IMG/VR virus record: IMGVR_UViG_3300046804_005083
Location: 1 to 64,000 of that record
DNA length: 64,000 nt
Direction: 5' to 3' (one strand)
DNA from: a virus
The translations under genes were made by a program, and so were the position numbers. The notes under the pieces are model-generated. The model was not told the origin of the DNA and did not search any database. It saw only the letters and a list, made by a program, of their open reading frames with translations. Positions 38,887 through 52,611 of the stretch are shown piece by piece; position 1 is the stretch's first letter, and the number at the start of each line of letters is the position of its first letter.

Positions 38887-39670
38887 GTCCTTATATAAAC
38901 TCAAAGGAATTCCTCATATTTACTGGTTAAATTTAGATGCAGATACTCATCGTCGTGAGTATATGGAGTCGCAGTTTAAATACTGGGAAATAGAAAATCA
39001 TACTCGTATTTCTGGGTATGATGGAAGAGAAGATGATGTATCAAGTTATCTTAGGGGAAGAATTCCTGATAATGTCACTCAAAATGAGTTGGGATGTTGT
39101 ATGTCTCATCTTAAGGCAATCAAACATTTTTATGAAAATAGTGCAGATGATTATTGTTTGATTCTTGAAGATGATGTGAATTTTGATATTGTAAAATATT
39201 GGAACTTTACTTGGACTGATTTTTTTGCCGAAGTTCCTTATGATTGGGACTGTGTACAGTTAACTACAATTTGCACTGGAGATATTCATGTTAAGTTGCA
39301 TTTAAAATTTATTAATGATTTCTCTGCAGCAATCTATCTGATTACAAGACATCATGCATCTAAGATTATCAAGAACCACATTCGTGGTGACAAATATAAA
39401 CTTGATAATGGTGTGAAACCTAGGGCAGTTTCTGAAGATGTCATTTTAGAAACTGGGAAGACATATACAATCCCACTATTTTTGTATAATCTTCAAATGG
39501 GATCCGCAATTCATCCAGAACACATTGATATATTTCATAAAGCACCTCATGATGCATTGCTAAATTATTGGCAACAAATGGGTGCTCAGATTAATATTAA
39601 GGAACATATGGATTATGATCCTTATCTTGGTCGGATAACCGAAAATTCATCCGCACAAAAACAAGCTTGA
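38873..39670 (+). CDS. GT25 LPS-type glycosyltransferase
   Basis: 265 residues. GT25 family: IPHIYWLNLDADTHRREYME at the N-terminus, TQNELGCCMSHLKAIKHF, and YCLILEDDVNFD (EDD metal site) at about 100-111. Another in-frame ATG at 38852 exists; the one at 38873 gives the shorter overlap. Last gene of the glycan operon. Confidence 0.85.
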   Translation: MDKNKSLYKLKGIPHIYWLNLDADTHRREYMESQFKYWEIENHTRISGYDGREDDVSSYLRGRIPDNVTQNELGCCMSHLKAIKHFYENSADDYCLILEDDVNFDIVKYWNFTWTDFFAEVPYDWDCVQLTTICTGDIHVKLHLKFINDFSAAIYLITRHHASKIIKNHIRGDKYKLDNGVKPRAVSEDVILETGKTYTIPLFLYNLQMGSAIHPEHIDIFHKAPHDALLNYWQQMGAQINIKEHMDYDPYLGRITENSSAQKQA

Positions 39671-39695
39671 CACAATCCTAAAAAAATTGTAAGAT
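39667..39695 (+). promoter_or_regulatory. Porin promoter (TTGACA-N17-TAAGAT)
   Basis: TTGACA overlaps the stop of the GT25 gene; TAAGAT follows at 17 bases and is itself part of AGATAAATACC, resembling a late box. Could serve early and late transcription of the porin. Confidence 0.65.
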
Positions 39696-39769
39696 AAATA
39701 CCGTGATGTGACGATGCCGCAATTAATTGCAAAGTTGCATAATGTCCTATAGAACAAAAACAAATTTTT

Positions 39770-41278
39770 ATGAAACTCAAACAACTGATGCTTGCACCTG
39801 TTGCTCTGGGAATGGTTGCTCCTGTTGCTGCAAGTGCGGCAGACCTTAATATTGCAGCAATCAACCAGTACTCTACTGAACAGGTCACAAGTATCAATCA
39901 ACTGTCTGATGTAAAATCTACTGACTGGGCATATCAAGCACTCAGCAACCTTGTAGAGCGTTATGGTTGTGTTGCTGGTTATCCTAACGGCACCTATGGT
40001 GGTGGTCAAGCAATGACTCGTTATGAAGCAGCAGCTCTTCTGAATGCTTGTCTCGATCGTGTAACTGAAGTTACCGACGAACTGAAGCGTCTTCAAACCG
40101 AATTTGCTGCTGAACTTGCTGTAATCCGTGGTCGTGTAGACAAACTGGAAGCACAAGTCGGCACTCTTGAGGCAACTCAATTCTCCACGACTACCAAACT
40201 TCGTGGTGAAGCATCCTTCGTTCTTGGTGGTGTTGATAATGCCTGGACCCCTGGTACTTCCAAGAATCCTGCTAGTACGAATGTTGGTAACACCGCATTC
40301 AACTATGACCTCCGTATCAACCTTGATACTTCGTTCACTGGTAAAGACCTGCTTCGTACTCGTCTGCGTTCTGGTAACTTCTCTTCCCAACCGTTTGGTT
40401 CCAGTTCTTCACTCTTTAAACTGGATAAAGCAGAGAACACTGCTGATGCAGTCAAAATTGATCGCCTGTATTACAGTTTCCCTGCCCTTACAAAAGGTCT
40501 GACTCTGACTGCGGGTGCTCTGGTTCGTAACACCGAAATTGCGTGGGTTCCTTCCGCATACAAATCGGATGTTCTGGACTTCTTCCAACTTGCTGGTGCT
40601 CCTGGTGTCTATAACAAGGCAACTGGTTCTGGTTTTGGTATTCAGTATGTTCAACCTAATAAGAAGGGTGGATTCGTTGCTGGTGTCAACTATGTTGCAC
40701 AAAGCGGTTCTGACTCTACCAAAGGTGAGTTTAATGAAAAGGGTGCTCTGAACACTCTTGCTCAGTTTGGTTATCGTGCTCCTAACTATGGTATTGCCTT
40801 TGGTTATCGTTATGGTACAGAAGGCACCCGTGTTCGCACTTTCAATGGACTTGCTGGTGCTTCTGGTGCCCTTGCTCCTGGTCAGACCTCTAATGGTTAT
40901 GCTCTGAGTGCTTACTGGCAACCTTCCAAGTCAGGTATCATTCCTTCGGTGAGTGGTGGTTATGGTTGGAACACTGTAAGTCGCAATGCCCTTAATCAGG
41001 AAACTCCTGCTGGTGCTACTAATTCGCAAACTTGGTATGCTGGTCTCCAGTGGTCTGATGTGCTTGCAAAGGGCAACTCCGCTGGTTTTGCTGTTGGTCA
41101 ACCTGGCAATGCAGAAGGACTTGATAAGGATGCAACTATGTGGGAAGCATTCTACAAGTATCGTGTAAGTGATAATATCACCATCACACCTGCTGTGTTT
41201 TATGTTTCTAACAATCAGGCACTTGCTGATACTTCCTCCAACTTTGGTGGAATTATTCAGACAACCTTTAGGTTCTGA
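39770..41278 (+). CDS. Cyanobacterial outer-membrane porin (SLH-OprB type)
   Basis: 502 residues. A signal peptide (MKLKQLMLAPVALGMVAPVA, cleavage after ASA); an S-layer-homology domain about 47-105 (STDWAYQALSNLVERYGC, AMTRYEAAALLNACLD); a short coiled coil (AVIRGRVDKLEAQVGTLEA); then an OprB-type beta barrel ending in the C-terminal aromatic FRF. This is the Som/iron-uptake porin type of cyanobacteria, clearly host-derived; codon use looks less A/T-rich than its neighbours. It may keep nutrients flowing during infection. Confidence 0.92.
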   Translation: MKLKQLMLAPVALGMVAPVAASAADLNIAAINQYSTEQVTSINQLSDVKSTDWAYQALSNLVERYGCVAGYPNGTYGGGQAMTRYEAAALLNACLDRVTEVTDELKRLQTEFAAELAVIRGRVDKLEAQVGTLEATQFSTTTKLRGEASFVLGGVDNAWTPGTSKNPASTNVGNTAFNYDLRINLDTSFTGKDLLRTRLRSGNFSSQPFGSSSSLFKLDKAENTADAVKIDRLYYSFPALTKGLTLTAGALVRNTEIAWVPSAYKSDVLDFFQLAGAPGVYNKATGSGFGIQYVQPNKKGGFVAGVNYVAQSGSDSTKGEFNEKGALNTLAQFGYRAPNYGIAFGYRYGTEGTRVRTFNGLAGASGALAPGQTSNGYALSAYWQPSKSGIIPSVSGGYGWNTVSRNALNQETPAGATNSQTWYAGLQWSDVLAKGNSAGFAVGQPGNAEGLDKDATMWEAFYKYRVSDNITITPAVFYVSNNQALADTSSNFGGIIQTTFRF

Positions 41279-41716: not shown

Positions 41717-41755
41717 GTTTTCCAGTATTATTACTTACGAAGTTATTCACTTTTT

Positions 41756-42718
41756 ATGAAACTCAAAAACTTTATTGCTGTTGGTCTGGTTGCTGCTCCT
41801 GCTGCTGCTGTTGCTGGACCTGCTCTGAATGGTGCTGGTGCCACCTTTCCTGCACCGATTTACCAACGTTGGTTCCAAGATTATGCACGAACTTCTGGGA
41901 GTAGGATTAATTATCAGTCCGTTGGTTCTGGTGCTGGTGTTCGTCAATTCGTTGCGGGCACAGTTGACTTCGGAGCAAGTGACGAACCCATCAAACCCGC
42001 AGAAGCAGCAAAAGTGAAACGTGGTGTCGTTCAAATCCCGATGGTCGGTGGAACGATTGCTGTTGCTTACAATAAACCTGGATGCTCTCTGAAACTGACA
42101 CAGAAGCAAACTGTTGATATTTTTGCTGGACGTACTAAAGATTGGAAAGCACTTGGATGTGCTTCTGGTCCTATTCGGGTTGTGCATCGTGCTGATGCTT
42201 CTGGAACCACCTTTGCCTTCACTAACTCTCTGGAAGCATTTGGTGGTTGGACTTATGGTGTTGCCAAGTCTGTGAACTGGCCCATTGGTGTTGCCTCTAA
42301 GGGTAATGAAGGTGTTGCTGGTACAATCAAGAACACTCCTGGATCTATTGGTTATGTAACGACTGGATTTGTTCGTTCTAACAAACTCCAAGCAGCAGCA
42401 ATTCAAAACAAGGCAGGTAAGTTTATTCTTCCGACTGCTTCTTCTGGTTCTGCTGCTCTGAACAGTATTACTCTTGATAGTAATCTTGCTGGTGAAAATC
42501 CAAATCCTGCAAATGTAGGTGCTTATCCTATCTCCACTCTGACTTGGATCCTTGCCTATAAGACAGGTAATGGTGAGAAGGTAGATGATATTCGTGCTGC
42601 CATTAAGTATGCTCTGAGCACTCCAGCACAGAGTATTGCTGATGATCTGGGTTATGTCCCTTTGAGTGGTTCTGTTCTCAACAAGGCACGTATTGCTACT
42701 GACCGTATCGGTAAGTGA
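41756..42718 (+). CDS. pstS: Phosphate-binding protein PstS
   Basis: 320 residues, periplasmic phosphate-binding subunit of the Pst ABC transporter. Signal peptide MKLKNFIAVGLVAAPAAAVA; binding-site segments GAGATFPAPIYQRW, GSGAGVRQF, DFGASDEP and HRADASGTT (the Ser/Thr and Asp residues that hold phosphate). The ATG at 41756 gives a proper signal peptide. Host-derived, boosts phosphate uptake during infection. Confidence 0.95.
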   Translation: MKLKNFIAVGLVAAPAAAVAGPALNGAGATFPAPIYQRWFQDYARTSGSRINYQSVGSGAGVRQFVAGTVDFGASDEPIKPAEAAKVKRGVVQIPMVGGTIAVAYNKPGCSLKLTQKQTVDIFAGRTKDWKALGCASGPIRVVHRADASGTTFAFTNSLEAFGGWTYGVAKSVNWPIGVASKGNEGVAGTIKNTPGSIGYVTTGFVRSNKLQAAAIQNKAGKFILPTASSGSAALNSITLDSNLAGENPNPANVGAYPISTLTWILAYKTGNGEKVDDIRAAIKYALSTPAQSIADDLGYVPLSGSVLNKARIATDRIGK

Positions 42719-44128: not shown

Positions 44129-44830
44129 ATGCAAATAGATCTTCATAACTTTTTTAGATATTATGATGAAAAGAATCCCAAACACGTTGCGGCAGTAGAG
44201 CAACTTGAAAAGGATTTGCTCTTGAAAGCACAAGGTCTGATGCAAGATGATGCAAATTGGGTAAGAATCTATAGAACAAAACCAGAAGCACCAAAATCAA
44301 ATATTCTTGCGGTTCCATTTTACCCACAAACAGACAACTACAGGGATGCAAATAGAACCTGCAATTCTTCTTCCTGTGCAATGTGCCTTGAGTATTTTAA
44401 ACCAGGAACTTTAAAAGGAGCAAAAGGCGATGATGCCTATGTTCAAAAAGTTTTTGCAATTGGTGACTCAACTGATCACTTGGTTCAAACCCGTGTGCTG
44501 GCGTCTTATGATGTTCAGTCATCTTTTAGTTACAGCCTCTCTTTTGATGATCTTGATAATGAGTTATCCAACAATAGACCTGTTGTCATTGGTATTTTAC
44601 ATAGGGGTCCTATATCTGCTCCTACTGGTGGGCACATGATTGTAGTTATTGGCAAAACTCCAGCAGGAGATTATGTTGTAAATGATCCTTATGGTTCTTT
44701 AAATGATGGATATACTGGTGCGGTAATTAATGGTAAAGGTGTAATATACAAGAAATCTGAACTAGTTCGTAGATGGACTCCAGATGGTCCTAAATCTGGT
44801 TGGGGAAGAATTTTCCGAACAAAAAAGTAG
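44129..44830 (+). CDS. C39-like cysteine peptidase, N-part of a frameshifted lysis protein
   Basis: 233 residues, papain-like peptidase of the C39_2 type: TCNSSSCAMCLEYF (probable catalytic Cys83), GGHMIVVIG (His169) and VVNDPYGS (Asp186). It ends ...GWGRIFRTKK at TAG. The last codons before the stop are ACA AAA AAG, the classic A_AAA_AAG slippery site in the correct frame; a -1 slip continues into the GH24 lysozyme. I infer a peptidase plus muramidase endolysin. A one-base homopolymer error is the main alternative. Confidence 0.8.
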   Translation: MQIDLHNFFRYYDEKNPKHVAAVEQLEKDLLLKAQGLMQDDANWVRIYRTKPEAPKSNILAVPFYPQTDNYRDANRTCNSSSCAMCLEYFKPGTLKGAKGDDAYVQKVFAIGDSTDHLVQTRVLASYDVQSSFSYSLSFDDLDNELSNNRPVVIGILHRGPISAPTGGHMIVVIGKTPAGDYVVNDPYGSLNDGYTGAVINGKGVIYKKSELVRRWTPDGPKSGWGRIFRTKK

Positions 44831-45309
44831 AATCAACATTGCAAGGCAGTATCCCTCAATGTGGTGTTGATTTAATCAAACAATTTGAGGGATGTCACTT
44901 GAATGCTTATCCTGATCCTTTAACTGGAGGATTGCCTATTACAATAGGGTGGGGAAGCACTAAAGATTTTGATGGATCTTTCTTTAAGATGGGAAGAAAA
45001 ATAACACAACAGTATGCAGATAAACTGTTAATTTATAGTTTAAAAGTAAGATTTATTCCTTTATTAGAAAAAATACCTTATTGGAATGAAATGAATGAAA
45101 ATCAACAAGGAGCACTTATTTCTTTTGCTTATAATCTTGGTGCTAGTTTTTACGGGTCTCCCAATTTTAATAGTATAAGTAAAGTTCTTAAATATAAGCA
45201 ATGGAATAAAGTTCCTGATACTTTGTATCTTTATAGGAATCCTGGAAGTAAAGTTGAAGAAGGATTGATGAAAAGAAGAAAAACTGAGGGACAACTTTGG
45301 ATGAATTAA
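44800..45309 (+). CDS. GH24 lysozyme domain (endolysin), -1 frame of the peptidase gene
   Basis: A T4-lysozyme-type muramidase: CGVDLIKQFEGCHLNAYPDP (catalytic Glu30 of this frame, Asp39), LPITIGWGST, then ENQQGALISFAYNLGASFY, ending RRKTEGQLW. The frame has no ATG near its start; only a TTG at 44800, inside the peptidase gene and lacking a convincing ribosome site at the right spacing. Expression through -1 frameshifting at 44821-44827 would start the domain at VESTLQG and give a fusion of about 394 residues. Confidence 0.85.
   Translation: MGKNFPNKKVESTLQGSIPQCGVDLIKQFEGCHLNAYPDPLTGGLPITIGWGSTKDFDGSFFKMGRKITQQYADKLLIYSLKVRFIPLLEKIPYWNEMNENQQGALISFAYNLGASFYGSPNFNSISKVLKYKQWNKVPDTLYLYRNPGSKVEEGLMKRRKTEGQLWMN
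44821..44893 (+). promoter_or_regulatory. Candidate -1 programmed frameshift signal
   Basis: Slippery heptamer A AAA AAG (44821-44827) followed at once by TAG. Upstream, GGGGAAG (44802-44808) could act as a Shine-Dalgarno-type stimulator, as in dnaX. Downstream, ATCCCTCAA (44851) pairs perfectly with TTGAGGGAT (44885), with a further inner TTGAT/ATCAA stem. The 23-base distance to this hairpin is longer than usual. Confidence 0.55.
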
Positions 45310-52012: not shown

Positions 52013-52252
52013 ATGAAATTTACAGTTTATTCTAAGAACGGTTGTCCTTATTGCGAAAAAATTAAACAAGTGTTAGAGTTGGCAAATCTTGAACATGTTG
52101 TTTATACTCTTGATGAAGATTTCACAAGGGATCAGTTTTATGCTGAATTTAGTGAAGGGTCAACCTTTCCTCAAGTTATTTTAAATGATCAAGAACATCT
52201 TGGTGGATGCACTGATACAGTCCTATATCTAAAGGAGAATAGTTTAGTTTAA
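52013..52252 (+). CDS. grx: Glutaredoxin
   Basis: 79 residues, thioredoxin-fold glutaredoxin with active site CPYC at 11-14 (SKNGCPYCEKIKQVL), cis-Pro in STFPQVILN and the GGCTDT glutathione-binding turn. Probable electron donor for the phage ribonucleotide reductase. Confidence 0.95.
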   Translation: MKFTVYSKNGCPYCEKIKQVLELANLEHVVYTLDEDFTRDQFYAEFSEGSTFPQVILNDQEHLGGCTDTVLYLKENSLV

Positions 52253-52611
52253 TGGAATCAACAGTTCACGAAATTTATTTTGATGTAGAAAAAGCAATTG
52301 ACTATGCATTTAATGGGCAATTTGTGTTAAAGTTTTATGATTACCTAAAAGTTCGTGGAACAAAAAAAATGGAAGTTGAAGAATTTATTGAAAGTAAGAC
52401 AGCATTCAATATTAGTGAACTTGTGATGGATCTTGATCAATATCTAGAAGGTGGTTCTGATATTAATCATAAACAACTTCGTGAGGCATACGGGCATATT
52501 CCAAAACCTCAAGCAAGAAAAATAAAGAATTACCTTTATGGCATTCTTGAAGATGCATGGAGATATAGTAATGATAGAAGACCAGGAAGGAGAAAAAAGC
52601 AAACTAAATAA
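52252..52611 (+). CDS. Conserved cyanophage protein, unknown function
   Basis: 119 residues: HEIYFDVEKAIDYAFNGQFV, ISELVMDLDQYLEGGSD and a basic tail (NDRRPGRRKKQTK). Shares one base with the glutaredoxin stop. I recognise it from this genome region of related phages; function unknown. Confidence 0.7.
   Translation: MESTVHEIYFDVEKAIDYAFNGQFVLKFYDYLKVRGTKKMEVEEFIESKTAFNISELVMDLDQYLEGGSDINHKQLREAYGHIPKPQARKIKNYLYGILEDAWRYSNDRRPGRRKKQTK

Follow-up and report, generated by a model that had tools for sequence, protein, structure and literature searches.

Probable programmed −1 frameshifting between a C39-like peptidase and a GH24 lysozyme in cyanophage endolysin loci

In the −1 frameshifting systems covered by the accessible text of PMC4066793, which cites the dnaX and IS911 stem-loops, stimulatory structures generally lie 5–8 nt downstream of the slippery site. 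Among phages, the tail assembly chaperones gpG/gpGT are a known case, with −1 frameshifting keeping a conserved ratio of the two products, as described in the relevant portions of PMC5009743 and PMC6316719. As for lysis genes, the available text of the PRFect paper (PMC10885494) counts lysins among genes in which frameshifts are known, with reference to a lactococcal phage study of 1994, and remarks that genes fused in some genomes may frameshift in others. That remark, as worded there, is the pattern that we find at the C39–GH24 loci described below.

The locus in question lies in the first 64 kb (hereafter the window) of a 117,152-bp IMG/VR viral record, a cyanophage contig. The window carries nine tRNAs, along with genes that we recognize as psbA, a transaldolase-like gene, a peroxiredoxin and a PstS-like gene. 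Such a set is typical of cyanobacterial T4-like phages, and Synechococcus phages of the Kyanoviridae are the best relatives of the window virus. The window also contains two long antisense ORFs (minus strand, 39647–40390 and 41747–42406; 247 and 219 aa) opposite genes of 502 and 338 aa, which are probably codon-bias artefacts.

On the plus strand at 44129–44830, a zero-frame ORF encodes a C39-like (papain-like) peptidase of 233 aa, the product expected without a shift. Its 3' end reads CGA ACA AAA AAG TAG, so that, as the sequence-only reading of this DNA had stated, the gene ends in an A_AAA_AAG heptamer (44821–44827) in exact zero-frame register, directly followed by the TAG stop (44828–44830). 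The −1 frame is open from the GTA at 44827 through 45309, giving 160 aa after the shift, and it does encode the complete GH24 lysozyme (muramidase) claimed for it, matching Pfam Phage_lysozyme (PF00959) over the full profile (1–125 of 125, E 1.9e-20). The trans-frame product (44129–45309) would thus be a peptidase-muramidase of 233 + 160 = 393 aa, as suggested by the frames and by relatives in which a single ORF carries both domains in this order.

The upstream ORF matches Peptidase_C39_2 (PF13529) over 1–143 of 143 (E 1.1e-12), and each of the two Pfam families has one match in the whole 117,152-base record. C83, H169 and D186 of the peptidase are invariant among 36 aligned homologues, as are E21, D30 and T39 of the lysozyme among 30; the latter three make up the GH24 catalytic Glu/Asp/Thr triad. 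A structure model of the peptidase (mean pLDDT 83.6, built on 26 sequences) resembles, with modest scores, papain-like enzymes such as PeiR and the C39 domains of PCAT/ComA: Foldseek ranks the peptidase domain of PCAT1, a C39 enzyme, first among PDB entries (E 4.3e-5; TM score 0.44 on the query), the pseudomurein endoisopeptidase PeiR follows at E 0.0037, and in a viral structure library the ACG-2014f lysozyme is matched at E 1.7e-32. A PDB sequence search with the peptidase profile gave no match, while GH24 enzymes of solved structure are matched by the lysozyme sequence. PHROG 3617 is a single profile of 405 with the peptidase at 1–235 and the lysozyme at 243–404, and since it covers both domains, the fused form is present in other phages. 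Taken with PHROG and record annotation, these domains point to an endolysin role, namely degradation of host peptidoglycan at lysis.

For comparison, IMG/VR was scanned twice at the protein level and once with a DNA pattern; together with the window locus and six phage records this supplied 285 loci, the DNA pattern spanning the peptidase end with the A run excluded. Removal of 113 duplicates and 8 loci without a usable peptidase end left 164 distinct loci, where distinct sequences are not to be equated with independent events; because the probes were made from the window, the sample leans toward its relatives. Peptidase and lysozyme are adjacent with an intervening stop in 116 loci (window included) and fused in a single ORF in nine; the lysozyme lies further downstream in 20, upstream in five and nowhere nearby in 13, and one locus sits at a contig end. 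In every one of the 116 adjacent loci the lysozyme is in the −1 frame, with no case in the zero frame after a stop and none in +1, and the distance from stop to GH24 core varies from 11 to 62 nt. A separate scan with the slippery pattern itself, kept out of these counts, returned at least 120 matching stretches, and a junction pattern run on the window alone gave no match, the window departing from that pattern. The frameshift type is widely spread over a FastTree peptidase tree, whose forks are weak and which we use solely for this point. Two of the other arrangements deserve mention as such. In one locus (L243, 217–1108) a frameshift-type C39–GH24 junction is present and the C39 domain recurs right after the lysozyme, this further copy matching residues 92–230 of the query; having first been filed as "lysozyme upstream", it stays outside the 116. 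Four others (L144, L154, L155, L161) have about 0.7–1 kb between peptidase and lysozyme.

The heptamer is kept in register at 113 of the 116 junctions, 90 times directly before the stop and 23 times one codon earlier. Of the remaining three, one has A_AAA_AAA and two have neither, both of these with an ATG that overlaps the peptidase stop. Which stop codon is used varies (TAG 82, TGA 24, TAA 10), as does the codon before the lysines, which among 114 loci, the A_AAA_AAA one included, is GCA in 60, GTA in 48, ACA in four, and GAA and ATA in one each, always with A as its third base. Elsewhere in these peptidase genes Lys-Lys pairs are written AAA-AAG in 12 of 96 cases (Fisher p 4e-44). That the preceding codon varies yet ends in A, and that AAA-AAG is so infrequent elsewhere, shows selection on the nucleotides rather than on two lysines. 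As a check on chance, the 68 window ORFs of at least 100 aa hold nine in-frame A_AAA_AAG heptamers, of which two lie no more than 15 nt from a stop. The second of these, at 52593 in the ORF 52252–52611, stands 9 nt before the stop without a −1 extension; we rejected it as a frameshift site, given a −1 frame that closes two codons on and a fold of little strength. Twelve nucleotides upstream of the heptamer at our locus, GGGGAAG (44802–44808, plus strand), the purine-rich stretch that the sequence-only reading took for a stimulator, could act in a Shine-Dalgarno-like way. Its codons belong to a GWGR motif that is invariant in the protein, found also in loci without the frameshift signal, and its conservation can therefore not be credited to an RNA role.

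Downstream of the heptamer, the window has a stem, here termed S1, whose 5' arm spans 44830–44843 and whose 3' arm, within the lysozyme coding sequence, spans 44860–44873 (plus strand). The sequence-only reading had described a nine-pair hairpin; the stem is there and is conserved, but it has 14 pairs, ten Watson-Crick and four G-U. RNAalifold finds this same 14-pair stem unaided in the window family of 21 relatives, where four pairs have changed on both sides, a level reached by two of 500 shuffles and by none of the slid controls, all of which gave 0. A second stem family of 11 sequences shows covariation no greater than shuffles (243 of 500). To gauge the hairpin across the survey, we took the 20 nt that follow the heptamer and expressed their complementarity with the next 60 nt as a z score, with a cut at −2. 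The median is −4.2 in the 66 loci whose lysozyme has no candidate start codon (60 beyond the cut) and −4.3 in the 27 with some other start in the span (26 beyond), so that a hairpin is predicted in 86 of the 93 frameshift-type loci. Minimum-energy z scores are weaker, passing −2 in 45 of the 66 and 20 of the 27. The complementarity score falls to −1.3 where a GTG or TTG overlaps the stop (5 of 11 beyond the cut) and to −1.5 among the nine fusions (four beyond). No hairpin is detected by this measure in any of the 12 loci with an overlapping ATG (median 0.0) or after the peptidase stop in any of the 20 separate-gene loci (median 0.4). The stem sequences differ wholly between lineages and, measured against the lysozyme frame, occupy three registers or more (30, 29 and 20 loci in the commonest three); registers were selected by the best helix they gave, which makes pair percentages partly circular, and the shuffles and the ATG-overlap group are the fair controls. 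The first pair lies 2–8 nt past the heptamer in 92 of the 93 loci, 28 of them at 2 nt, and thus many stems stand closer than the usual 5–8.

The window family may go one step further, to a pseudoknot. The S1 stem is the optimal fold of the window up to 60 nt, while at 66 nt a competing fold is favored (−18.3 vs −13.0 kcal/mol by a nested folding model) that uses a possible second stem, S2, formed between the loop segment ATCCCTCAA (44851–44859) and TTGAGGGAT (44885–44893, both plus strand), the latter comprising the catalytic FEG codons. A program limited to nested folds would be expected to show a pseudoknot in this way. Across the 21 relatives 97.9% of the S2 cells are paired, with no pair changed on both sides. 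The GAG codon is used in 24 of 25 loci with a complementary loop versus 23 of 90 others, a test inflated by related sequences, and this bias tentatively favors a pseudoknot in the window family.

We searched the lysozyme frame for ATG, GTG or TTG, from the −1 stop that lies upstream to the start of the GH24 core, and found none in 66 of the 116 loci, a GTG or TTG overlapping the stop in 11, an ATG overlapping it in 12, and some other start within the span in 27, the window among them. The sequence-only reading had described the lysozyme as lacking a good start of its own; this is borne out by the startless majority and is less clear-cut for the window, which has TTG at 44800 and 44839, codons missing from most relatives. 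These TTGs, the overlapping starts (ATG in 12 loci, GTG or TTG in 11), and the annotation of S-SRM01, which has the heptamer, an ATGA overlap and no hairpin, with a separately started lysozyme, could be taken to mean that the lysozyme is a separate protein made by translational coupling, with ribosomes reinitiating at a weak start, such as a TTG, close to where the peptidase ends; a lysozyme made only from an independent start had been named by the sequence-only reading as an outcome that would refute it. Such coupling would leave both the heptamer and the hairpin unexplained, and it is precisely where an ATG does overlap the stop that the hairpin is missing; with the majority startless and the window TTGs not conserved, we consider it very improbable. 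Nor is the startless lysozyme a dead one. Its dN/dS has a median of 0.107 (72 close pairs in the startless group), similar to that of the peptidase (0.092, 218 pairs), and it is under purifying selection. Since it is selected yet startless, recoding or a non-standard start is needed.

Programmed ribosomal slippage is not the only route that would give these two products from one gene. An RNA polymerase adding an A within the A6 run would place both domains in one mRNA frame, and the same pair of proteins would be expected; L189, with seven A and a plain fusion, and S-CAM7, with eight T, fit such transcriptional slippage. Bacterial polymerase slippage, however, usually occurs at longer runs, and here nearly every locus has six A and then a G, with no trend to longer runs. 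Because a conserved mRNA hairpin starts at the stop and the codon register is strict, we favor the ribosome over the polymerase and think transcriptional slippage very unlikely. Lastly, the junction might be a sequencing error in what is truly a simple fusion, or the remains of a decayed gene, for which the single-ORF fusions of L189 and ACG-2014f could be cited. The in-register six-A heptamer recurs at 113 of 116 junctions from many assemblies and in the isolate S-PM2; one relative, L189, reads seven A bases, the plain-fusion outcome that the sequence-only reading had named as refuting it; the triad is invariant and the dN/dS low, and error or decay seems to us scarcely credible. As we read it, the sequence comparison removes chance and sequencing error as explanations, and it contradicts plain coupling and a dead lysozyme as well.

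Among isolates, the reference cyanophage S-PM2 has GCA AAA AAG TAA, an 11-pair stem and no start codon. In the three S-CAM7 isolates one sees GTT TTT TTT CCA CAG TAG, with T_TTT_TTT in place of A_AAA_AAG, a hairpin six bases on, from the stop onward, and, on our reading of the sequence, a −1 frame without a start codon; in the tree the S-CAM7 peptidase groups with those of fused forms, an indication that its signal arose separately. Because the lysozyme has no start codon of its own, the lysins of both phages are annotated as fragments starting inside the GH24 domain, that of S-PM2 from locus position 2460 where the match begins at 2220, and those of S-CAM7 from 1729 or 1783 where it begins at 1501. 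In DSL-LC02 and DSL-LC03 the peptidase and lysozyme are separate genes. The survey has 20 separate-gene loci and 12 with an overlapping ATG, so the mechanism is not universal. Fusions, which had been suggested as a thing to look for in relatives, occur in nine loci including ACG-2014f, from which it follows that the fused protein is workable. Three of them carry an in-register A_AAA_AAG (ACG-2014f, or L006; L182; L271), L189 carries A_AAA_AAA, and the other five have no such site. In ACG-2014f and L182 the −1 frame reads V and then stop, with a hairpin next, so that a shift would here make a short form. The heptamer, −1 stop and hairpin of ACG-2014f are kept in all six records examined of 45 matching, close relatives of one another, and the −1 stop follows from its Ser-Asp/Glu codons; we regard short-form slippage in these two fusions as a lead, not a result.

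Other pairings of lytic domains were also seen. S-CREM1 (L005, 1489–2670) and three further loci (L127, L131, L132) have the reversed order, lysozyme and then peptidase in one frame, an independent arrangement which suggests that the two activities belong together. In S-CRM01 (L289, NC_015569; 2080–2240) gp113, a GH24 lysozyme, is interrupted close to the C-terminal end and gp112, in the −1 frame, continues (WNYVPSALMLYRNPGS); the part of gp112 after WNYVPSALMLYRNPGS has a domain resembling, by eye, an L,D-transpeptidase. This break may be a sequencing error, decay or another frameshift.

What can be seen in the sequence itself is the heptamer, its register, a predicted hairpin, a startless majority, patterns of conservation and loss, and purifying selection on the lysozyme. 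On these grounds we consider it very probable that programmed −1 frameshifting of the dnaX/IS type yields a 233-aa peptidase and a 393-aa peptidase-muramidase. The two-product event postulated by the sequence-only reading thereby gains support from the heptamer register, the hairpin, the startless relatives and the conservation. The locus would be a two-output endolysin: most ribosomes would read the C39-like peptidase and terminate at the TAG, and some, held up by the hairpin while AAA-AAG is occupied by two tRNA-Lys, would move one base backward, decode GTA in place of TAG and continue through the GH24 lysozyme, so that free peptidase and fusion would be made at a fixed ratio. We infer slippage in infected cells and its efficiency, the action of both products on peptidoglycan, and the importance of their ratio for lysis.

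On the decoding side, a tRNA-Lys pattern run on four cyanobacterial genomes found no match, the pattern evidently being too strict, and a tRNA family search was used instead. Among tRNA genes at 39 places in a Cyanobium MAG, the sole tRNA-Lys is UUU, with no CUU; the MAG is possibly incomplete and may differ from the phage's true host. Decoding of AAG by tRNA-Lys(UUU) only is a condition that has been tied to AAG slippage in E. coli (reference 41 of PMC4066793, as cited in the available text).

A bolder proposal, which we hold tentatively and would ourselves bet against, is that the selected trait is the proportion, held fixed, of free peptidase and peptidase-muramidase, which may be reached by any recoding at hand: A_AAA_AAG in most; T_TTT_TTT in S-CAM7; and, in fusions, a mirror-image, dnaX-like slip (ACG-2014f and L182, for example, whose −1 stop would give a short form from a default-long gene). 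In the window family the signal would be a coaxial H-type pseudoknot with the FEG codons in its second stem. The two forms might then act jointly, for example in one lytic complex. Frameshift, ATG overlap, fusion, reversed fusion and separate genes together amount to a natural experiment on the fixed ratio of two lytic activities, in phages whose hosts are ecologically important cyanobacteria. If the arrangement recurs elsewhere, such lysozymes will have been missed by gene callers.

How, then, does this locus compare with known systems? With E. coli dnaX and the IS3-family transposases it shares the heptamer class, the zero-frame register, a nearby stem-loop and, as predicted, a second product with a common N-terminus. 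It differs from them in being a phage endolysin; because the stop directly follows the heptamer, the shift would lengthen the product, whereas the E. coli dnaX shift gives a shorter one. The stem is also often closer (2–8 nt), and GGGGAAG is at most a candidate Shine-Dalgarno-like stimulator. Like gpG/gpGT, the locus is a gene pair, here probably joined by −1 frameshifting, although those are tail assembly chaperones rather than lysis enzymes and the proteins are unrelated. Mycobacteriophage Ms6 LysA likewise gives two enzyme forms from one lysis gene, but, according to the accessible text of PMC3111421, through a second gene that is nested in-frame within the first, and with no frameshifting. 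The lactococcal phage lysin of 1994, so far as its citation describes it, similarly involves two overlapping frames, in another host and phage group. Closest in protein content are the endolysins of PHROG 3617 and the reversed PHROG 10051, to which, judging from profile domain order, ACG-2014f and S-CREM1 would respectively belong. They have the same two domains, at roughly 61–78% identity, and differ in using one frame, the long form being made without a frameshift. A search of titles and abstract openings, covering mostly open-access journal papers, found no literature report of a frameshifted cyanophage endolysin. A lysis enzyme would join the short list of phage functions under programmed frameshifting; the mechanism is a known one, and its lineage-wide use in an endolysin is, provisionally, a new and strongly conserved setting for it.
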